A DNA stretch of 64,000 nucleotides from Acidobacteriota bacterium. GTDB taxonomy: Bacteria; Acidobacteriota; Vicinamibacteria; Vicinamibacterales; 2-12-FULL-66-21. This document shows positions 28,046 to 41,364 of the stretch, piece by piece. Position 1 is the stretch's first letter, and the number at the start of each line of letters is the position of its first letter. The stretch spans positions 57,005-121,004 of the forward strand of contig QHWT01000054.1 in the NCBI GenBank assembly GCA_003222675.1, in the 5' to 3' direction. The notes beneath the pieces are model-generated. The model was given only the letters and a program-made list of their open reading frames with translations. It did no database searches and had not been told where the DNA came from. The position numbers were made by a program, and so were the translations under genes.

Positions 28046-28420
28046 TCTCATTCACATTCCCTCGTAACCCTCAGGCCTGAGCTCCGTCCCGATTCCGCGC
28101 GGGAGAGCACGCGCGCTTCGGCGCGGCCGGCCTGCCCAGGCAACGCTTCATCGATTCGTGCGGCGCGCCGCGTCGGCGGCGTCGTTGCCCCGGGTGCGAG
28201 CGCTCGCGTCGGTCTCTCGGGCTCCACCTGTTTGCCCGCTGTAGCCGCTTCTGCGGCGAAGGCGGAGCTTGTCCGCCGTAGCCGCTATGCGGCGAAGGCG
28301 GATCGGTACGAGTTTCGTCCGCGTTCAACAACGAAAGGAAGGCCGTTCGATGACCACCAGTGGTCAGTGCAGTTCCACGTGTGCCTATGCAGCAGTGCGA
28401 CACATTGCGGGGAGGACATC
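28046..28420. other. intergenic region, 375 bases, with palindromic repeats
   Basis: It separates the acidic protein from the peroxidase gene and should carry the latter's promoter. It contains two copies of a GC-rich palindromic repeat (28236-28302). An open frame extends through it into the peroxidase gene, but the peroxidase start at 28421 has an ideal ribosome site, so the extension is not needed. Confidence 0.5.
28236..28302. repeat. two tandem copies of a palindromic GTAGCCGC repeat
   Basis: Copies at about 28236-28266 and 28272-28302 share GTAGCCGCT, then TGCGGCGAAGGCGGA. Each can fold as a hairpin: TCCGCC/GGCGGA outer and GCCGC/GCGGC inner pairs around a three-base loop in the second copy. 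This looks like a dispersed palindromic repeat family; similar GGCGGAAG palindromes lie inside the gene at 54488-57379. Confidence 0.6.
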
Positions 28421-31400
28421 ATGAGAGTGCAGCAACCGTTCACATGCCGGCGTGGCGCGCGTTCGAAGCCGCTGGCGATCCTTGCGTTGATCGCCATGGT
28501 CGCGTCGCCGGTCGGTCGTCCCATGTTCACGACGACCGTTCACGCGCAAACGCAGGTGGCCCCGGTCGGCAACGGCTTCTTTATCAACGACGACGACCTG
28601 CGGTTCATCTTCAAACAGATCCAGGTCTCGCAGGCCAATGCGGCCGGCGGAGCGCTTCTCGGGCCCGGGCCAAACCAGGTCAACTCGCAGGCCGCGCCCA
28701 ACGGCAATCCACAGCTCCCGATGGGCTTGCGAACAGTCGACGGGTCGTACAACAACCTGGTGCAGATTCCCGACCAGCACATGTTCGGCGCCGCGGACCT
28801 GGTCTTCCCGCGGAAGACGACCCCCGTGTTCCGCGATGCGGAGCCCTTGCCGTTCGATCCTGACGGCGCCGGTCCGCAGGCAGCGGGTCAGCCGACGTCG
28901 TATACGCAGAAGGCCGGATTCGTCGCCGACTCGCAGCCGCGCCTGATCAGCAACCTGATCGTCGATCAATCCGCGGCGAACCCGGCGGCCGCCGCAGCAG
29001 CGGCGAACCCGTGCGGCTCGGGTGGGTTCGTGTGCTCGCCGGCTGCACCTCCCGATCCGGATTCCGGCGCGCTGTTCATTCCGAACATCACGCCGAATTT
29101 CGGTCTCTCAGCGCCGTTCAACCTGATGTTCACCTTCTTCGGCCAGTTCTTCGATCACGGGCTCGATCTCGTGACGAAGGGCGGCGGCACGGTGATCATC
29201 CCGCTGCAGCCTGACGACCCTCTGTTCGTTCCGGGCGGCTCGACCAACTTCATGGTCATGGCGCGCGCCACGAATCAGCCCGGTCCGGACGGCATTCTCG
29301 GGACGGCTGACGACATTCAAGACGGGACCAACACCACGACGCCGTGGGTCGATCAGAACCAGACCTACACGTCGCATCCGTCGCACCAGGTGTTCCTGCG
29401 CGAGTACGCGATGAACGCGCAGGGCAAGCCGGTTCAGACGGGCAAAGTGCTCGACGGCGGATTCTGCGCGCCGCGCGCGACGGGAATCCCCGGCGACAAC
29501 ATCTGCGATATCGGAAACTGGGGCGAGGTCAAGGCGCAGGCAGCCACCAAACTCGGCATCCAGCTGGTCGACCAGGATATCTTCGACTGCCCGCTGCTGC
29601 TGACGGATCCGTACGGCCATTTCAAACCAGGTCCGAACGGGTTCCCGCAGCTCGTGCTGCCCAATGGCGTTCTGGTCGAGGGCAATCCCGCCGCAAACGG
29701 CGGCGCCGGCGTGCTCATCCCGGCGAAGGCCTTCAGGACCGGCCACGCGTTCCTCAACGACATCGCGCACAACGCGGTGCCGAGCCCGGGTCTGGTGCCC
29801 GACGCCGACACCACAATCTGCGACTTCCGCACGTGCACGCAGCCGCCGGGAACGTATGACGACGAACTGCTCGCCCGTCACTTCGTCACCGGAGACGGCC
29901 GCGGCAACGAGAACATCGCGCTGACGATGGTTCACCAGATTTTCCACGCCGAGCACAACCGGCTGGTGCACTACATCGATCAGCAGATCAACGCGCTGCT
30001 GACGCCGGCGGAAATCGCCGCGTGGCACGCAGTGGACGGGCCGTCCGGCTGGGATTACGGCGAGCGTCTGTTCCAGGCGGCGCGGTTCGGCACCGAAATG
30101 CAATACCAGCACCTCGTGTTCGAGGAGTTCGCCCGCAAGATGCAGCCGTTGATCAATCCGTTCCTCGGCGGCATCACGTCGATCAACCCGGCGATCTCCG
30201 CCGAGTTCGCGCATACGGTCTATCGCCTCGGGCACTCAATGCTGCCCGAACGGGTGGCCCGGATCAATGCCGACGGGTCGAACAACGACCTCAGGCTGCT
30301 CAACGCGTTCCTCAACCCTCCGGCGTTCAACGACGGCGGGACGGCCGGGCCCCTGACCGCTGACAAAGCCGCGGGCGCGATCATTCGCGGCCTGGTCCTG
30401 CAGGTCGGCAACGAGCTGGATGAATTCGTGACCTCCTCGGTGCGGAACTCGCTCCTCGGTCTCCCGCTGGACCTGCCGGCGATCAACATCGCGCGAGGGC
30501 GCAGCGAAGGGATCCCGCCGCTCAACGAGGTGCGCCGGCAGCTCTTCCAACAGACGAAGGACGCGTCCCTGACTCCGTACGCGAACTGGTTCGAGTTGGG
30601 ATTGCAGCTGAGACACGTCGAATCCCTGGCGAACTTCGTTGCGGCCTACGGCACGGACCCGACGATTACGAGTGCGACGACCGTGACGGCAAAACGCGCC
30701 GCGGCGCAGGCGTTGGTGTTGGCCAACGGACCGTTCATGTTCGCACCCGCGGCGACCAGCGGCCTCAACACCGTGGACTTCTGGGTCGGCGGTCTCGCCG
30801 AGAAACAGGCGGTGTTCGGCGGTCTGCTCGGATCGACGTTCAACTACATCTTCGAGCACCAGCTGGAAGACCTGCAGAACGGCGACCGGTTCTACTACCT
30901 CCAGCGCACCGACGGCCTGAACTTCAGGTTCCAGCTCGAAGGCAACTCGTTTGCCGAGCTGTGCCGCCGCAACACGGACCTCGGTGCCTCGATGGCCAAA
31001 ATCTTCGAGACGGCCGATTTCAACTTCGACGCGGCCACCCTCACGGGCACCGCGACGATCCCGCTCGCCGACAACACATCGCTAATCACGTTGGCCGACG
31101 GAACGAAGCTGTTCTTCGACCCGCTGCACAAAGGCAAGAACGTCATGTTCAATGGCGGCCCCGGCGACGACCGCTTCCAGGGTGACGTCGGTGACGACAC
31201 CATGTATGGCAACGGCGGCAACGATCGGCTGACCGGCGGTGAAGGCGACGACGAGCTGGTCGGCGGCGATGGAGACGACATCCTCTTCGGCGGCCCCGGC
31301 AACGATATCCTCAAGGGCGGCCCCGGCAACGACGCGCTGAGCACTGGACCAGGGTTCGGCGGCGACATCGCGATCGGCGGCGAGGGGGACGACTTCATGC

Positions 31401-33817
31401 TCGGCGGCGACGACGGCGTCGAGTACTTCGCCGGCGGCGGCGACGACATCATCGTCGACGGCGCGCAGCGCGCTGAGGGCATGTTCGGCGGCCCTGGCGA
31501 CGACTGGATCTACGACGGTGACGGACACGACGGCGGCATCTTCGGCGATGACGGCAACGTGTTCGACCTGCTCGCCGGTCTCAATCAGGTGGGCGGCGAC
31601 GACGTCGAAGGTGGCGGTCCCGGACAGGACAACCACTTCGGCGAAGGCGGCGACGACATCTTCCTGATGTCCGAAGGCTCCAACAAGTTCTTCGGCGATT
31701 ACGGGTTCGATATGGTCACGCAGCGGGGATGGCCGGCGCCAGGGCAGATCGATTTGAGCTTCCTGCCTTTGCCCGGAGTCATCCTGAACTTCAACAATCT
31801 GAGCAACATGTACCGGTTCGTCGACGGTGCGTCAGGATGGGATTTGGACGATCACATCGTCGGCGACGACAACGTGTTCGATCCGGCGGCGCCAGTCGAG
31901 ATCCAGCTGCAGCCCCAGATGGCGCTGACGGAGGAATACGCTGCCAAGGTCGCGGGACTCCGGGACCTGATCGTCAGCGGCTTCGGGGTGACGCCGACAG
32001 ATGCGCCGGTGAACTTTTCCACGAACTCCGGTGGTGAGCCGGGCATTGTGGCCTATACCAGGCACATTCTGTGGATCGGCGGCAACCTCCTCCTCGGCGG
32101 TCTCGGCAACGATACGATCGAGGGCCGCGGCGGCGACGACCTGATCGACGGTGACTCGTGGCTCAACGTCCAGCTCCGCGCGGTGCTCAATGACGGCACC
32201 GTGAAGCTGGTCGACGACCCGCGCCTCCTCGTTGACGACGTGTTTGCTGATCCCCAGCGCCTGAACCCGGGCCACATCAGCATCGTGCGCAGCATCGTGC
32301 AACCGGCCAACGTTCCGCCACCCGATTGCGGAGCCCCGGCACCACTGAACTGCGACACGGCTGTGTTCTCGGGTCCGCTTGCCGACTACTCGATTCAGCT
32401 GAATGCAAACGGCACGGTGACGGTGATTCACGTCGCCGGCAAGGGGAACTTCAAGGCTCCGACCAACGACGGCACCGACACCCTCCGGAACATTGAGCAG
32501 CTCAAGTTCTCGGATGTGACGATCCCGGCACCGAGGCCGGCGACCAACGTCGTGCCGAACGTCATCGGGCTGACGCCGGCTGCGGCGCAGGCTGCGATCG
32601 TCGCGGCCGGGTTGAGGGTCGGAGCGACCACCACCGGCAGGGTCCTGCCCGCGAATCCCGTCGCGATCGGGCTCATCGCGAGCCAGAGCCCGTTGGGCGG
32701 GACCAAGGTGGTGGCAGGGGCCGCCGTGAATATCGTCACCTCGACCGGCCTCGAGACGCCGAACGTGGTCGGCTTGCCGTATCCGGGCAACCTGACGACC
32801 GGCGCCGTGCACAACCTCACCGAATTCGCACTGGTCATCGGGACCGTCACCAACCAGTTCAGCACCACGGTCCCTGCGGGTCTGGTCATCAGCCAGGATC
32901 CGGTGGCGGGTACGGGCGTCAACGCGGGCACCGCAGTGAACCTGGTGGTGTCGTCAGGGCCGCCGCTCGTTGCAGTGCCGAACGTCGTCGGCCTGACGCA
33001 GGCGGCAGCGACAACGGCGCTCACGAACGCAGGCCTCACTGTCGGCTTCGTGGGAAGCGCGAGCAGCGAAACGGTAGCGGCCGGCAGCGTGATCAGCCAG
33101 ACTCCGACGAGCCCTGGCACCGCGCCGCAAGGGAGCGCCGTTGCGCTGGTCGTCTCGACTGGAACTGCGGGTCCGGCGATCACCGTGACAGCCAAGCGGA
33201 ACGCCGGTTTGCCGAACCTGACGGTCACGAGCCCGGCGTTTGCTCCGGGCGCCAACACGTTGTTGGTGGCGTTGGTCTCGGCGGACGCGCCGGTCGACGG
33301 CGTGAACACGATCGTGAACGGCATCAACAACACCGGTACCGCGTTGACGTGGACGAGAGCCGTCCGCTCGAACGCGCAACTGGGCACGGCGGAAATCTGG
33401 TGGGCGTTTACGACGCCGGCACACGCCAGCATGACCGTCACTGCCGTCATGAACAACTCGGAAACGGCGTCGCTGACGGTGATGGGATTCACCGGAGCAG
33501 TGCCGACACTCGCCGGCGCCGCGAGCCTCGCGGCAAGCGCTGCGGCTGGCGCACCGAACGGGACGATCGTGACCACGGCTGCCAACTCGCTGGTTGTCGG
33601 CGTCGGCACGGATTGGGATATGGCTCGCACCATGAAGCCGGCGGCAGGCCAGATCTTGGTCAACTCGTTCAACACGCCGAACGGCGATACGTACTGGGTG
33701 CAACGGACGTCGCCGCCCGTTGCGGCGACCGGTACCAGCATCACGATCCGCGACAGCTACGGCACGTTAATGCCTGACCGCTGGAACCTGGCGTTGATCG
33801 AAATCCGGAAGCAGTAG
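28421..33817 (+). CDS. animal-type heme peroxidase with RTX and PASTA repeats, secreted
   Basis: A 1798-residue exported multidomain protein. The ATG at 28421 has GGAGG five bases upstream; a signal peptide ends about residue 43. The peroxidase domain (about 130-860) keeps the animal heme peroxidase residues: Asp245-His246 (FFDHGLD; distal His and heme-linked Asp), Arg494 and Glu497 (GRGNE; catalytic Arg and heme-linked Glu), EHNR at 511-514, and proximal His605 (YRLGHSMLP). Calcium-binding GGxGxDxxx repeats follow (about 910-1060 and near 1230), then three PASTA repeats (about 1376-1582, each with PNVVGL-like strands) and a beta-rich C-terminal domain ending in ALIEIRKQ. It should oxidise halides or phenolics outside the cell; RTX repeats suggest calcium-dependent folding after export. 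Product and target are inferred. Confidence 0.88.
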   Translation: MRVQQPFTCRRGARSKPLAILALIAMVASPVGRPMFTTTVHAQTQVAPVGNGFFINDDDLRFIFKQIQVSQANAAGGALLGPGPNQVNSQAAPNGNPQLPMGLRTVDGSYNNLVQIPDQHMFGAADLVFPRKTTPVFRDAEPLPFDPDGAGPQAAGQPTSYTQKAGFVADSQPRLISNLIVDQSAANPAAAAAAANPCGSGGFVCSPAAPPDPDSGALFIPNITPNFGLSAPFNLMFTFFGQFFDHGLDLVTKGGGTVIIPLQPDDPLFVPGGSTNFMVMARATNQPGPDGILGTADDIQDGTNTTTPWVDQNQTYTSHPSHQVFLREYAMNAQGKPVQTGKVLDGGFCAPRATGIPGDNICDIGNWGEVKAQAATKLGIQLVDQDIFDCPLLLTDPYGHFKPGPNGFPQLVLPNGVLVEGNPAANGGAGVLIPAKAFRTGHAFLNDIAHNAVPSPGLVPDADTTICDFRTCTQPPGTYDDELLARHFVTGDGRGNENIALTMVHQIFHAEHNRLVHYIDQQINALLTPAEIAAWHAVDGPSGWDYGERLFQAARFGTEMQYQHLVFEEFARKMQPLINPFLGGITSINPAISAEFAHTVYRLGHSMLPERVARINADGSNNDLRLLNAFLNPPAFNDGGTAGPLTADKAAGAIIRGLVLQVGNELDEFVTSSVRNSLLGLPLDLPAINIARGRSEGIPPLNEVRRQLFQQTKDASLTPYANWFELGLQLRHVESLANFVAAYGTDPTITSATTVTAKRAAAQALVLANGPFMFAPAATSGLNTVDFWVGGLAEKQAVFGGLLGSTFNYIFEHQLEDLQNGDRFYYLQRTDGLNFRFQLEGNSFAELCRRNTDLGASMAKIFETADFNFDAATLTGTATIPLADNTSLITLADGTKLFFDPLHKGKNVMFNGGPGDDRFQGDVGDDTMYGNGGNDRLTGGEGDDELVGGDGDDILFGGPGNDILKGGPGNDALSTGPGFGGDIAIGGEGDDFMLGGDDGVEYFAGGGDDIIVDGAQRAEGMFGGPGDDWIYDGDGHDGGIFGDDGNVFDLLAGLNQVGGDDVEGGGPGQDNHFGEGGDDIFLMSEGSNKFFGDYGFDMVTQRGWPAPGQIDLSFLPLPGVILNFNNLSNMYRFVDGASGWDLDDHIVGDDNVFDPAAPVEIQLQPQMALTEEYAAKVAGLRDLIVSGFGVTPTDAPVNFSTNSGGEPGIVAYTRHILWIGGNLLLGGLGNDTIEGRGGDDLIDGDSWLNVQLRAVLNDGTVKLVDDPRLLVDDVFADPQRLNPGHISIVRSIVQPANVPPPDCGAPAPLNCDTAVFSGPLADYSIQLNANGTVTVIHVAGKGNFKAPTNDGTDTLRNIEQLKFSDVTIPAPRPATNVVPNVIGLTPAAAQAAIVAAGLRVGATTTGRVLPANPVAIGLIASQSPLGGTKVVAGAAVNIVTSTGLETPNVVGLPYPGNLTTGAVHNLTEFALVIGTVTNQFSTTVPAGLVISQDPVAGTGVNAGTAVNLVVSSGPPLVAVPNVVGLTQAAATTALTNAGLTVGFVGSASSETVAAGSVISQTPTSPGTAPQGSAVALVVSTGTAGPAITVTAKRNAGLPNLTVTSPAFAPGANTLLVALVSADAPVDGVNTIVNGINNTGTALTWTRAVRSNAQLGTAEIWWAFTTPAHASMTVTAVMNNSETASLTVMGFTGAVPTLAGAASLAASAAAGAPNGTIVTTAANSLVVGVGTDWDMARTMKPAAGQILVNSFNTPNGDTYWVQRTSPPVAATGTSITIRDSYGTLMPDRWNLALIEIRKQ

Positions 33818-37399: not shown

Positions 37400-39043
37400 C
37401 TAGCGGCCGTGCACAAAGCGGCCCGTGATAGTGACCGCGACCTCAATCGGCACGCAGTTGAGCAGCGTAGAATCATATTGCCACTGGTTGACAGCCGCGA
37501 GGAGCGCGTTCGCGAACTCGCGATTTGCGGGCTCCCGCACGCGCACGTCCTTCAGAAACCCATCGGTACCGATCAGCGCATCGAGCACGATCGTGGCGTC
37601 CGCGCCAGTGCCACGCACGCTGGCGGGGTACTGCGGCCTCACATCTCTGATTTTGTTCGGCGGTCGGATGTTTCCGCCAATCGGCACATCCGCGGTGGCG
37701 GCAGTTGACGGGCACGGCGGATTTGGGCGTGGACTTGCGGTTTGCACGGCTCGGCTCGACGAATCACCGTCTCCCGCGATGACGATCTCCTCGGCGACCG
37801 ATCCGATCTCCAAGGTAATCGCGCGGCGGGCGTTGTCGCCAGTCATCGTCAGCGCGGCCCGATAGGGTTTAAATCCTGGTACCTGCACTTCGAAAACGTA
37901 GTCGCCGGGCGGCAGGCCAACGATCTCGAACTCGCCGCGCCTGTTGGTCTGCGCGTCGTACTTGATCTGCCGCTCCGCGTTCGACAAGGTCACGCGGACG
38001 CCCGGGAGCGCCGCGCCCTGCGGATCGACCAGCGACCCGGAAAATGTGGCAAACACCTGGGCCGCGGCGATCGTGCCCGCGATGACGGCGAGCGCCATCA
38101 CGGTGGCAACACGGGCAAATGGAGACATCGGGCTGCGATTCTGACGATCGTTCAACATGGCAGTCACTCGCTTGTGAAGGCTCGACGATCGAGCCATGGC
38201 CGGAGCCGGGAATAAGGGGTGGCGGTGATTGAATGCGCGCGCGAGGCCGAGCAGATGGCTCGCGTAGGCCGAACTGTCCACACCGCTCCTGAGCACCGCA
38301 TCGTCGCACGCATGCTCGCTCTCGAGGCGCAGCCTTCGACAGGCGAGCCACACGAGTGGATTGAACCAGTACATCGACCGCACGAGCTCCGCCGAGATCT
38401 GCACAATCCAGTCGCCCCGCCTGATGTGCGCGAGCTCGTGACTGAGGACCATGCCGACGAGATCGTCGGGCCAGCGCTCCGCTCCTCCGGGGATCATGAT
38501 GGTCGGCGAAACGACACCCCACGTCGCGAGCAGCGATGAGTCATCACTCTGGAGCACTCGCACCGGGTGTCGCAGTCCATACTCTCGCGCGATCTGCTCT
38601 GACAGCGTCGTCCAGTTGGCGAGCGTTACGGGTCGCGCACGCGACCGAAGCCACGCAAGCCGGATCAGTCCAAGAACCAGGACGAGCAGTCCCATCGCCA
38701 CGCCAGCGATCCACATCAACGCGAGAATCGAGCGCGTCGACCACCCACGCACAGCATCCCGAGCGGAACCTACGACCGGCGCTCCCGCCTGGCGCGTAAT
38801 GCGGTCAGCAGAAAATGTCGACGTACGTTCGGTCGCGGCCGCTGGGTGTGAGGGAAGTGTGAGTTCGGCGAATGACGGTGAGCCGATCGAGAGCGGCCAG
38901 GCCGGCACGAGCAATTCCAACATCGGGAGGACGCCGGCGCACACGATCGCAACGGCAAGGATCCAGTGCCGCTGCGCCGCCGACTGATTGCGCAGCAGGC
39001 GCGTTGCGCACAAGGCGACGAGCACGAGGATGGATATCTTCAT
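37400..39043 (-). CDS. BlaR1/M56-type sensor peptidase with regulatory and TonB C-terminal domains
   Basis: A 547-residue membrane protein. N-terminal spans (about 5-50 and 105-130) frame an M56 metallopeptidase: HELAH at 202-206, with the downstream ESEHACDD near 241-248 as third ligand region. After a further span (about 310-330) a carboxypeptidase-regulatory-like beta domain follows (FSGSLVDPQGAALPGVRVTL), then a TonB C-terminal-like domain (about 455-547, DVRPQYPASVRG and GFLKDVRVREP). The penicillin-binding sensor domain of true BlaR1 is absent; the two extracytoplasmic modules probably replace it. It overlaps blaI-like by ATGA, so sensor and repressor are made together. Confidence 0.85.
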   Translation of the reverse strand: MKISILVLVALCATRLLRNQSAAQRHWILAVAIVCAGVLPMLELLVPAWPLSIGSPSFAELTLPSHPAAATERTSTFSADRITRQAGAPVVGSARDAVRGWSTRSILALMWIAGVAMGLLVLVLGLIRLAWLRSRARPVTLANWTTLSEQIAREYGLRHPVRVLQSDDSSLLATWGVVSPTIMIPGGAERWPDDLVGMVLSHELAHIRRGDWIVQISAELVRSMYWFNPLVWLACRRLRLESEHACDDAVLRSGVDSSAYASHLLGLARAFNHRHPLFPAPAMARSSSLHKRVTAMLNDRQNRSPMSPFARVATVMALAVIAGTIAAAQVFATFSGSLVDPQGAALPGVRVTLSNAERQIKYDAQTNRRGEFEIVGLPPGDYVFEVQVPGFKPYRAALTMTGDNARRAITLEIGSVAEEIVIAGDGDSSSRAVQTASPRPNPPCPSTAATADVPIGGNIRPPNKIRDVRPQYPASVRGTGADATIVLDALIGTDGFLKDVRVREPANREFANALLAAVNQWQYDSTLLNCVPIEVAVTITGRFVHGR

Positions 39044-39423
39044 CGGCCCGACCTGGCCTTCTCGATGACCTGCGCAATCCGCTGCAGCTCGTCCTCCGAC
39101 AAGCGCGCGCCCTCACCGCCGACGAGCGCCGCGACGACCTTTTCCGCGGAGCCATCGAAAAACGTGTCGACCAGATGGCGCAGCGCCGACTTGCGCGCGG
39201 CGCGACGTGGCAGGGCAGGCGTGTAGATGTAGCGAAGGCCTGCTTCCTCGTGCCGCACGTGCCCCTTCTCCTCGAGTACGCGCAACTGCGTGCGCACGGT
39301 CGACGAGTTCGGATCGCCGGAAAGATCCGCCATGACGGCCGCGGCGGTGGCGCGTCCGCGTCGATACAGGATGTCCATGATTTGCCGCTCGCGTCGGGTC
39401 AGGCTGTGGAGCGATCGCGACAT
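39040..39423 (-). CDS. BlaI/MecI-family transcriptional repressor
   Basis: A 127-residue winged-helix repressor: LTRRERQIMDILYRRGRATA, SSTVRTQLRVLEEKGHVRHE and a C-terminal dimerisation segment. Proteins of this family are cleaved when the partner M56 peptidase (37400-39043) is activated. The ATG at 39423 has no Shine-Dalgarno; the promoter at 39436-39464 would give a leader of only a few bases. A dyad with ATGTTAT arms covers the start codon, which indicates autoregulation. The regulated target, other than its own operon, is unknown. Confidence 0.9.
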   Translation of the reverse strand: MSRSLHSLTRRERQIMDILYRRGRATAAAVMADLSGDPNSSTVRTQLRVLEEKGHVRHEEAGLRYIYTPALPRRAARKSALRHLVDTFFDGSAEKVVAALVGGEGARLSEDELQRIAQVIEKARSGR

Positions 39424-39493: not shown

Positions 39494-39528
39494 AAAAAGG
39501 CCGGTCCAACGTGCGTTGGCCGGCCTTT
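39494..39528 (-). terminator. intrinsic terminator after the selenoperoxiredoxin gene
   Basis: On the minus strand AAAGGCCGGCCAACG pairs with CGTTGG-A-CCGGCCTTT, with one bulged base, and is followed by a T-run (CCTTTTTCC). It lies 22 bases after the TGA/TAA end of the gene at 39550 and precedes the blaI promoter. Confidence 0.8.
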
Positions 39529-39549
39529 CCTGCCACCGGGGGACCGCGT

Positions 39550-40086
39550 TCAGTGCTTTTCCTTCACCCCGAGCTCCTTCAGCTTCGCGACGACCGCTTC
39601 GCCGGCGGTCTGCGGCTTCACCTCTTTGTCAATCGCGAGGATCTTGCCGTCAGGTCCGATGTAAAAGGTCCAGCGATACGCGAACTGACGCTCGGGCGTG
39701 ACGACGCCGTAGGCGGTTGCGACTTTTTTCGATGGATCGCTGAGAAGAGGAAAGTCGGCGTGCTCTTTTTCCGCGAACGCCCTGTTGTCTTCCGGCGTGT
39801 CGACGCTCGCCATGAAATAGGCGACATCGTACTTGCGAATCAGTTCCCCGCTCCCACGGAGCGAGTTGCACTCGGCGGTTCAACCACCGGTGAAGGCTTT
39901 GGGAAACCACGCCAGGACCACGGTCTTGCCCTTGAGATCCGCAAGCGAGTAGGTCTTTCCGTCGCTGCCAGGCAACGAAAAGTCGGGCGCCTCGTCTCCG
40001 ACCTTCAATTCACCGGCGAGCACTGGCGCCCCCAACAACAGAGAGGTGAACACGGTCGTGAGCACCAGGCGGTGCCTGTGCAACAT
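39550..40086 (-). CDS. selenocysteine-containing peroxiredoxin (AhpC/TSA-type), secreted
   Basis: A 178-codon gene with one in-frame TGA at 39882-39880 (codon 69). Before it the protein has a signal peptide ([12 protein letters not shown]) and a peroxiredoxin start ([20 protein letters not shown], then WFPKAFTGG). After it the frame continues [40 protein letters not shown] and [15 protein letters not shown]. The TGA falls exactly at the peroxidatic Cys of the FTGGCTxEC motif, and Cys73 can serve as resolving residue. A hairpin fitting a bacterial SECIS lies 14 bases downstream. Insertion of selenocysteine gives a highly reactive peroxidase. GGAAGGAG precedes the ATG at 40086. Read naively, the gene would appear as two separate open frames. 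A nonsense mutation is the alternative, but the position makes it unlikely. Confidence 0.82.
39847..39865 (-). promoter_or_regulatory. bacterial SECIS element within the peroxiredoxin gene
   Basis: In the mRNA, CUCGCUCC pairs with GGAGCGGG (8 bp, one U-G) around a GUG loop. The stem begins 14 bases and the loop 22 bases after the UGA. Known bacterial SECIS hairpins lie just downstream of UGA with a small apical loop having G at its start 16-37 bases away, and this one fits. A weaker CGAG/CUCG hairpin could compete. Confidence 0.7.
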
Positions 40087-40182
40087 GGAAGCTCCTTCCG
40101 TTCATTTGTTCCCCTACCATAGCATGAGGCCCCACGGCACTTTCCGCCCGCCGGGGACGTATATTGTTCAGAGGAGCACTCG

Positions 40183-40467
40183 ATGACCGAACGGACCTGC
40201 TGGGAGTCGTTCAAGGCGGAGAGCGGCAACGCGTTTCAAAAGCTCAAACAACTGATTCACGAAGGCAACGTCCGCCGCGTGCGGATCCGGCAGGGGTCGC
40301 GCACCGTGGCCGAATTTCCCCTGACGGCGGGGGTGGTCGGCGCGGTGATCGCTCCCATGCTGGCCGCCATTGGCGCGCTCGTAGCACTGGTCAAGGACTG
40401 CACGATCGACGTGGAGCGGGTCGACGCGTCGGCGGCCGACGAGACACCGCGCGCCGTCAACGAATAG
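40183..40467 (+). CDS. DUF4342 domain protein
   Basis: A 94-residue protein: MTERTCWESFKAESGNAFQK, LIHEGNVRRVRIRQGSRTVA and a hydrophobic helix (EFPLTAGVVGAVIAPMLAA) with a charged tail. This pattern (basic amphipathic region, then GNVRRIxI, then membrane segment) is DUF4342, a small membrane-associated family of unknown function. The ATG at 40183 has GAGGAG seven bases upstream and TATATT at 40160-40165 as a likely -10. Divergent from the selenoperoxiredoxin gene across 96 bases, so the two could share regulation. Confidence 0.75.
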   Translation: MTERTCWESFKAESGNAFQKLKQLIHEGNVRRVRIRQGSRTVAEFPLTAGVVGAVIAPMLAAIGALVALVKDCTIDVERVDASAADETPRAVNE

Positions 40468-40634
40468 AATCGGCTGTCGCCCATCCGACTGAAGAGTGGC
40501 GTTTGCAGAGGCCGAGGGGCGATCGGCAGTCGACAATTCGTGAATCCACAATTTTCAATGTCGGCCTGCGGTCAGCAATCGTCAATCCGTGAATGGGCAT
40601 CCTGCAGTCTGCAGTCGACAATCAACGCGGCTGA
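40468..40634. repeat. word-like degenerate repeat block before crcB
   Basis: Between 40478 and 40625 runs of near-copies such as GACAATTCGTGAATCC, GTCAATCCGTGAATG, CTGCAGTCTGCAGTCGACAA and similar succeed one another at about ten-base spacing. No gene and no recognisable fluoride riboswitch are visible, although crcB follows at once. Confidence 0.5.
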
Positions 40635-41006
40635 ATGAACGTCCTGTTGATTGCGCTCGGCGGGTCCATCGGAGCGGTCGCGCGATATGGACTCGCCGGG
40701 CTGGTTCAGCGGTTCACGACGCCGTACTTTCCATTCGGCACCTTCGTCGTGAACATGGTTGGGTGCTTCGTCTTCGGCATTCTCGCCGGTGTGGCGGAAC
40801 ACCGGTTCGCGCTCGGGCCCCAGGCACGCGCGTTTCTGCTCATCGGCGTCCTCGGCGGATTCACGACCTTCTCGTCATTCAGCTTCGAGACTTTTCAACT
40901 GCTCCGCGACGCCGAGATCATGCGCGCATCGGTGAATGCCGTCGGCCAGCTCGTCGTCGGCCTGTTCGCGATGTGGATCGGCTTCGTCGTGGCGAGACTT
41001 CTGTGA
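40635..41006 (+). CDS. crcB: CrcB/Fluc fluoride channel
   Basis: A 123-residue four-span membrane protein with all family signatures: GGSIGAVARYGLAG (9-22), GTFVVNMVGCFVFG (37-50) with the conserved Asn, and GVLGGFTTFSSFSFE (73-87). Fluc channels form dual-topology dimers that export fluoride. The gene is followed seven bases later by a DUF190 gene, the usual partnership. The usual crcB riboswitch is not seen upstream, so its control may be constitutive. Confidence 0.93.
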   Translation: MNVLLIALGGSIGAVARYGLAGLVQRFTTPYFPFGTFVVNMVGCFVFGILAGVAEHRFALGPQARAFLLIGVLGGFTTFSSFSFETFQLLRDAEIMRASVNAVGQLVVGLFAMWIGFVVARLL

Positions 41007-41013
41007 GGCATGG

Positions 41014-41364
41014 ATGAAGCTTCCGGCCGAAGGCAGGCTGCTGCGGATCTTCGTCGGCGAAGCGGATCGCTGGGAAGGAAGACCTCTGTATCAGGCTATC
41101 GTCGAAGCCGCGCGACACCAGGGGCTCGCCGGCGCGACCGCATGGAAAGGCTTCATCGGGTTCGGCGCCAACAGCCGCGTGCACACGGCGAAGGTGTTAC
41201 GGCTGTCGGAGGATCTTCCAGTTGTGATTGAGATCGTGGATGGGCCCGACAAGATCGAAGCATTCCTGCCGGCGCTCGACGAGATGGTGCAGGAAGGGCT
41301 CGTGACGCTCGAGCGCGCGAAGGTCATTCACTACAGGCACCGGACGAAAAAAGACGGCAGCTAG
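41014..41364 (+). CDS. DUF190 protein, partner of CrcB
   Basis: A 116-residue protein: MKLPAEGRLLRIFVGEADRW, LYQAIVEAARHQGLAGATAW and KGFIGFGANSRVHTAKVLRL, a ferredoxin-like fold resembling PII signalling proteins. DUF190 genes are typically adjacent to crcB and thought to modulate fluoride tolerance. The ATG at 41014 is seven bases after the crcB stop (a second ATG four bases upstream is out of frame). Its stop codon is the first base triplet of a 14-bp inverted repeat. Confidence 0.85.
   Translation: MKLPAEGRLLRIFVGEADRWEGRPLYQAIVEAARHQGLAGATAWKGFIGFGANSRVHTAKVLRLSEDLPVVIEIVDGPDKIEAFLPALDEMVQEGLVTLERAKVIHYRHRTKKDGS

Follow-up and report, generated by a model that had tools for sequence, protein, structure and literature searches.

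Peroxiredoxins that carry selenocysteine (Sec) are already described among bacterial selenoproteins. In the available parts of the relevant surveys, the Sec peroxiredoxin (Prx) is catalogued under COG1225 (Bcp) with the motif TxxU (PMC1088965, PMC9312934; also PMC1794560, PMC5029168, PMC13188914), 43 such genes being listed for a Sargasso Sea data set (PMC1088965) and 91 in 78 organisms by 2016 (PMC5029168). Of the selenoprotein-rich bacteria known at that time, 78.3% were anaerobes, and the majority fell into three groups, Deltaproteobacteria, Clostridia and Synergistetes (PMC5029168). For Acidobacteriota, the accessible text of a 2006 survey counts four selenoproteins in three families, left unnamed there (PMC1794560), and that of a report on Occallatibacter riparius counts three known selenoprotein genes, likewise unnamed (PMC12013277).

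We analysed a 64,000-nucleotide stretch of DNA from an acidobacteriotal genome of the order Vicinamibacterales (hereafter the window), which includes a peroxiredoxin gene with an in-frame UGA codon. Compared by description only, its product resembles the catalogued COG1225 family in its AhpC/TSA domain, predicted peroxidatic Sec, TxxU motif, SECIS element directly after the UGA and widespread Cys homologues; the portions of the cited descriptions at hand name no Prx from Acidobacteriota and mention neither a signal peptide nor a UxxxC pair. A literature search outside of which most subscription journals lie returned, among the matches listed, no title or abstract on an exported UxxxC subfamily of Sec peroxiredoxins. 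The predicted export and the UxxxC pair are thus possibly the new part here.

The window protein scores under the cut-off of every one of the 11 NCBIfam models that it matches. These include PrxU (NF040737), which we take to be the Sec peroxiredoxin of Eubacterium acidaminophilum: it is a peroxiredoxin like the window protein, but the latter scores 52.8 bits with this model of 233 positions, whose cut-off is 270. Proteins of the PrxQ/BCP type (PRK09437, NF006960; PDB 3drn, 3hjp, 4g2e) are among the best relatives in both sequence and fold, yet the window protein stays below the PRK09437 cut-off (89.6 versus 140 bits) and differs in having Sec and a predicted export signal. Its second cysteine is at +4 from the peroxidatic residue and Asn occupies +5, whereas in PrxQ (2ywn, 4g2e) the second cysteine is at +5. 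AhpE (PDB 1xxu, 4x0x) is close in fold, with a TM-score of 0.70–0.76 when normalized by the query, but is unlike the window protein as regards the invariant second cysteine, Sec and the signal-like N-terminus.

A peroxiredoxin gene with an in-frame UGA codon

The features of the locus are as follows.

39550..40086, minus strand: putative Sec-peroxiredoxin gene, 178 codons plus a TGA stop; codon 69 is TGA
39880..39882, minus strand: in-frame UGA, very probably selenocysteine, at the peroxidatic position of PKAFTGG-U-TAEC (TGA/TGC exchange in aligned genes)
39868..39870, minus strand: Cys73 codon; the residue, at +4, is a candidate for the resolving cysteine and is conserved in all 156 distinct genes
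39847..39865, minus strand: bacterial SECIS-type hairpin within the coding sequence, 7-bp covarying stem and CGUGN-type loop
40015..40086, minus strand: predicted signal peptide, residues 1–24, a hydrophobic stretch ending in VLA (hydrophobicity rule; cleavage site placed by eye)
40092..40097, minus strand: Shine-Dalgarno-like AAGGAG (read by eye)
39494..39530, minus strand: terminator-like hairpin with a T run, 3' of the gene (fold without shuffles)

An earlier note, made from the window alone, had proposed a selenocysteine peroxiredoxin in a frame open from 40086 to 39550 except for one TGA. These coordinates are exact, the sole internal stop being the TGA of codon 69 (39882..39880), and the terminal stop is likewise TGA. 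The note had also expected automated annotation to split the gene, and a mechanical ORF finder indeed does so, calling in this frame only the 87-amino-acid piece downstream of the TGA. Since a gene finder that reads UGA as a stop splits the gene in this way, the whole family may be under-annotated.

Conservation of the UGA codon across relatives

Some peroxiredoxin match was found in each of 100 genomes sampled from the order, the window's own included. When these genomes were assigned to classes by hand from the search, 71 had a close homologue with TGA, so that the Sec peroxiredoxin is near-standard in Vicinamibacterales; 16 had only a stop-free homologue (the fragmentary genes of G062 and G087 being counted here on the absence of a stop, with no sequence retrieved) and 13 had no close homologue. 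The underlying 107 tblastn rows correspond to 105 genes (L100 is the same place as L049), among them the window's gene (L023) and its Cys paralogue (L054). The alignment with Cys homologues that the earlier note had called for shows TGA as the catalytic codon in 81 of these 105 genes and the Cys codon TGC in the remaining 24. The TGA of codon 69, shared so commonly, is hence no sequencing error, and the Cys homologues are an alternative form and not the rule among the nearest relatives. A second set of named genomes, the best 80 of at least 549 relatives, yielded 83 matches above 50% identity, with 50 TGA, 32 TGC and one TGT at the catalytic codon; one further TGC match of 32% identity (L149:3651) was set aside and is excluded from the pair, codon and tree counts.

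The Cys paralogue in the window's own genome (L054, G000:C38:104127-104582) is 65% identical to the window protein and, as checked by hand, lacks the core stem described below. More distant peroxiredoxins, with 36–43% identity to the window protein, likewise have one in-frame TGA (G023:C336, G052:C127, G007:C34, G079:C37, G040:C103, G024:C121 and G069:C24) and possibly constitute a second Sec-peroxiredoxin subfamily.

A SECIS-type hairpin conserved in UGA genes

According to the available description, a bacterial SECIS element has a small apical loop holding a G (PMC1088965). The window has a hairpin of this kind just after the UGA, its small apical loop containing G, and the earlier note's account of it (an 8-bp stem with a GUG loop, starting 14 bases after the TGA) matches the sequence. 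What relatives share is a 7-bp stem (39865–39859 paired with 39853–39847) closed by five loop nucleotides, in most cases CGUGN; they do not share the additional apical pair that makes the window's stem 8 bp long. In a folding check, as suggested in the note, the hairpin forms, but its energy is ordinary, the 68-nt fold having a z-score of 0.26 and 114 of 200 shuffles folding at least as stably. A search of Rfam over 39500–40150 matched no family at E values up to 10. As single-sequence fold energy is uninformative here, we relied on comparative counts.

Two alignments were used for this purpose, one of 70 distinct Sec genes out of 81 (identical 42-nt rows removed; A1) and one of all 24 Cys genes (A2); in both, the 42 nt from the TGA position align without gaps. 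The 7-bp stem (columns 18–24 with 30–36) pairs in 92.2% of cells in the Sec genes and has 39 double-sided changes against a shuffle mean of 6.3, a value attained by none of 500 shuffles. In the Cys genes the same columns pair in 61.9% of cells, with no excess over shuffles (228 of 500 equal or better); these shuffle statistics, as well as the Fisher and Mann–Whitney tests, ignore relatedness among genes. The median energy of a 23-nt local fold is −10.9 kcal/mol in the 81 Sec genes versus −5.05 kcal/mol in the 24 Cys genes.

Wider counts were made on 188 genes from both sets (the order sample and the named genomes), reduced to 156 with distinct local sequence, a set used for the core stem, the Arg codon and Cys73. 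A 4-bp core stem in the main register is present in 94 of 107 Sec versus 4 of 49 Cys genes, and in the main or a shifted register in 106 of 107 versus 13 of 49, the shifted register having been defined post hoc from the alignment and giving no separation alone (12 of 107 versus 9 of 49). L070 is the only one of the 107 UGA genes in which neither register forms the core stem. Among genes with Arg encoded in the loop, CGT is the codon used by 94 of 100 Sec genes and by none of 15 Cys genes; elsewhere in the Sec genes CGT accounts for 66 of 730 Arg codons. Because the loop fixes a synonymous Arg codon, the family is suited to the study of the constraint that SECIS elements impose on coding sequence. 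It is the comparative evidence, with the Cys homologues as control, that gives the hairpin its significance.

Selenocysteine machinery in the genome

The earlier note had inferred a working Sec system encoded outside the window and named the absence of selB and tRNA-Sec as grounds against its reading. The assembly from which the window comes (7.16 Mb, 152 contigs, 99.9% complete) contains tRNA-Sec with the anticodon TCA (UCA in the RNA), selA, selB and selD, each over the curated cut-off. Within the sample from the order, selA exceeds its cut-off in 65 of the 71 TGA genomes, in 5 of the 16 Cys-only genomes and in 7 of the 13 with neither form (Fisher p 1.3e-6 for TGA versus Cys-only genomes, relatedness ignored). 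The six TGA genomes in which selA does not reach the cut-off fall into two groups: G042, G049 and G067 retain incomplete stretches of selA, and G002 (90% complete, 780 contigs), G068 (81%) and G085 (62%) have none.

The selD gene of the window's genome (L020, G000:C36:78330-79259) itself has one in-frame TGA, in the context CAG-U-ASK (CAG-TGA-ASK), and by eye this codon precedes a hairpin-forming stretch. It is probably a second selenoprotein gene of this genome.

Predicted fold, active site and export of the protein

Read through the UGA, the window protein matches Pfam AhpC-TSA (2.5e-34), and its nearest solved structures by sequence are PrxQ/BCP and AhpE. The predicted structure (pLDDT 93.6) finds its best PDB folds, by Foldseek, in BCP, Bcp1 and AhpE; in this model residue 69 is near the start of a helix (67–78) and Cys73 follows four residues further on. 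The sequence has the full PxxxTxxC(U) motif, P62-x-x-x-T66-x-x-U69, together with a distal Arg138, which is invariant in two alignments, one of the window and 45 of the aligned rows (A3) and one of 50 sequences (A4). The motif FTGGCTxEC cited in the earlier note places the TGA correctly at the catalytic Cys, and it is usual among the 105 genes but not universal: Gly is found at residue 68 in 101, Thr at residue 70 in 103 and Cys at residue 73 in all 105. Thr66 is kept in 101 genes (77 of 81 Sec and 24 of 24 Cys) and Pro62 in 96 (72 of 81 and 24 of 24). The Pro62 replacements are in nine Sec rows (L034, L083, L090, L099, L105, L106, L110, L111 and L117) and in no Cys gene, and the Sec form may relax the need for this residue.

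All 156 distinct genes encode Cys73, and the residue shows no variation in A3 and A4 or among the Cys forms. Its invariance suggests that a selenenic acid at residue 69 would be resolved by Cys73, and we moderately favour this residue as the resolving one; a structural role is also possible, since the cysteine is invariant in Cys forms too and its +4 spacing departs from the +5 of PrxQ. A signal-like hydrophobic N-terminus is seen in 102 of the 105 genes by a simple hydrophobicity rule, and the window protein is likely to be exported.

Distribution and history of the family

A phylum-wide sample of 199 genomes contains 31 with close members of the family, the window's own included. In the 80 named loci described above, the best of at least 549 relatives, both Sec and Cys forms occur in assemblies labelled Verrucomicrobiota (five TGA, two TGC) and Planctomycetota, while Pseudomonadota, for example Haliea, have Cys forms only (six of six). 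The Cyanobacteriota label of one locus (L141) is probably wrong, as in the columns used for the tree its sequence does not differ from that of L040, which belongs to G036 in the window's order; another locus, labelled Chloroflexota (L131), branches near the window with weak support. These sequences very probably represent a widespread, apparently exported peroxiredoxin family with Sec in its active site in the little-studied Acidobacteriota.

With the active-site columns excluded, a quick IQ-TREE tree requires 14 or more changes between Sec and Cys, three of them forced by starred branches, and a FastTree tree of the whole alignment gives eight; support is weak for many branches, and the trees do not show which way the changes went. 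Judging from these trees, the Sec and Cys forms have been exchanged repeatedly in the family. Such Sec/Cys sisters, sometimes adjacent in one genome (tandem Sec and Cys copies at L155), make the family a good system for studying what is gained by Sec over Cys. Tandem pairs of two Sec peroxiredoxin genes occur at L137:4001-5432 and L140:4001-5323.

Proposed mechanism and alternative explanations

From the presence of the Sec genes, the exchange of UGA with Cys codons and the covariation of the hairpin, we infer with high confidence that Sec is inserted at UGA codon 69 of a peroxiredoxin. SelB and Sec-tRNA(UCA) would bind the hairpin, whose stem starts 14 nt after the UGA, Sec would enter at residue 69, and the predicted signal peptide would carry the product, putatively an exported BCP/AhpE-like selenoprotein, over the inner membrane. 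There Sec69, near the helix start, would attack H2O2 or an alkyl hydroperoxide held by Thr66, usually Pro62, and Arg138, as general knowledge of peroxiredoxins and the conservation of these residues suggest. In the least certain steps, the resulting selenenic acid would be resolved, most likely by Cys73, as a selenenylsulfide, which a periplasmic thiol system would re-reduce. We regard as evenly balanced the broader proposal that these proteins form a separate exported class of selenoperoxiredoxins, with Sec69-x-x-x-Cys73 in one helix, which would protect the envelope against peroxides throughout Vicinamibacterales and, here and there, in other Acidobacteriota, Verrucomicrobiota and Planctomycetota, would swap repeatedly with Cys forms as the Sec system is lost or kept, and would be hidden from annotation by its UGA.

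Should the TGA be a real stop, owing to a sequencing error, a point mutation or decay into a pseudogene, the 87-amino-acid downstream ORF would be a remnant. The splitting of the gene by the mechanical ORF finder, the ordinary energy of the isolated hairpin and a further in-frame stop within the matched part of three relatives (G065, G043 and G048:C23) agree with this idea, to which we nevertheless give almost no credence, as 81 of 105 genes, from genomes of 38 genus codes, share the TGA at this codon with Cys as the only alternative, the protein is conserved on both sides of it and the hairpin covaries. Decoding of the UGA as Cys or Trp, or by general suppression, would fit the Cys found as the alternative residue in homologues; it is highly improbable in a genome with tRNA-Sec(UCA), selA, selB and selD and in a gene that itself terminates at TGA, and both the association with selA and the conservation of the hairpin in UGA but not Cys genes point to the Sec system. 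Sequencing error, pseudogene formation and general suppression were thus dropped in view of the shared TGA, the Sec genes and the hairpin conservation confined to UGA genes.

Two further alternatives accept a Sec protein of peroxiredoxin fold and concern its chemistry. Its main role might be thiol-disulfide or selenenylsulfide exchange in the envelope, in the manner of TlpA/ResA or Sco, and not peroxide removal. Sco proteins carry CxxxC, and the U/CxxxC pair in all 156 distinct genes, the predicted export, the loss of Pro62 or Thr66 in some Sec forms and a sub-cut-off match to NCBIfam ResA (42.2 bits versus a cut-off of 170) are consistent with such a role. We consider it rather unlikely, given that Thr66 and Pro62 are kept in 101 and 96 of 105 genes, that Arg138 is invariant in A3 and A4, and that the best families (AhpC-TSA and the PRK09437 thiol peroxidase) and the best structures are those of peroxiredoxins. 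A 1-Cys (here 1-Sec) AhpE-like peroxiredoxin, in which Cys73 would be structural and an external thiol would do the resolving, is compatible with Sec insertion and agrees with AhpE being among the closest folds and sequences and with the +4 spacing unlike the +5 of PrxQ; we find it possible but doubtful, because Cys73 never varies in either the Sec or the Cys forms, which suggests a redox role.

Genomic surroundings

A scan for promoters around the gene gave no match. The bulged hairpin 3' of the gene is missing from the output of a consensus terminator scan but appears in a 73-nt fold (−37.6 kcal/mol). With its own ribosome-binding site and terminator-like hairpin, the gene is probably monocistronic. 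When ORFs of at least 90 amino acids within 1500 bases of the named loci were clustered, every cluster was confined to 7 or fewer of the 80 loci, and some were, by eye, not real frames; as no neighbour gene is widely common to these loci, we propose no operon.

Adjoining the gene on the same strand (37400–39423, minus strand) are a penicillinase-repressor (BlaI-like) gene, preceded by the inverted repeat ATGTTATT...AATAACAT (by eye), and a gene for a BlaR1-type M56 peptidase with a TonB C-terminal domain. Divergent from it (40183–41364, plus strand) are genes for a DUF4342 protein and a CrcB-like protein, followed by another small ORF. Elsewhere in the window, an ORF of 1861 amino acids (28232–33817, plus strand) resembles, by eye, a haem peroxidase of the animal type that also has Ca-binding repeats and PASTA-like domains.
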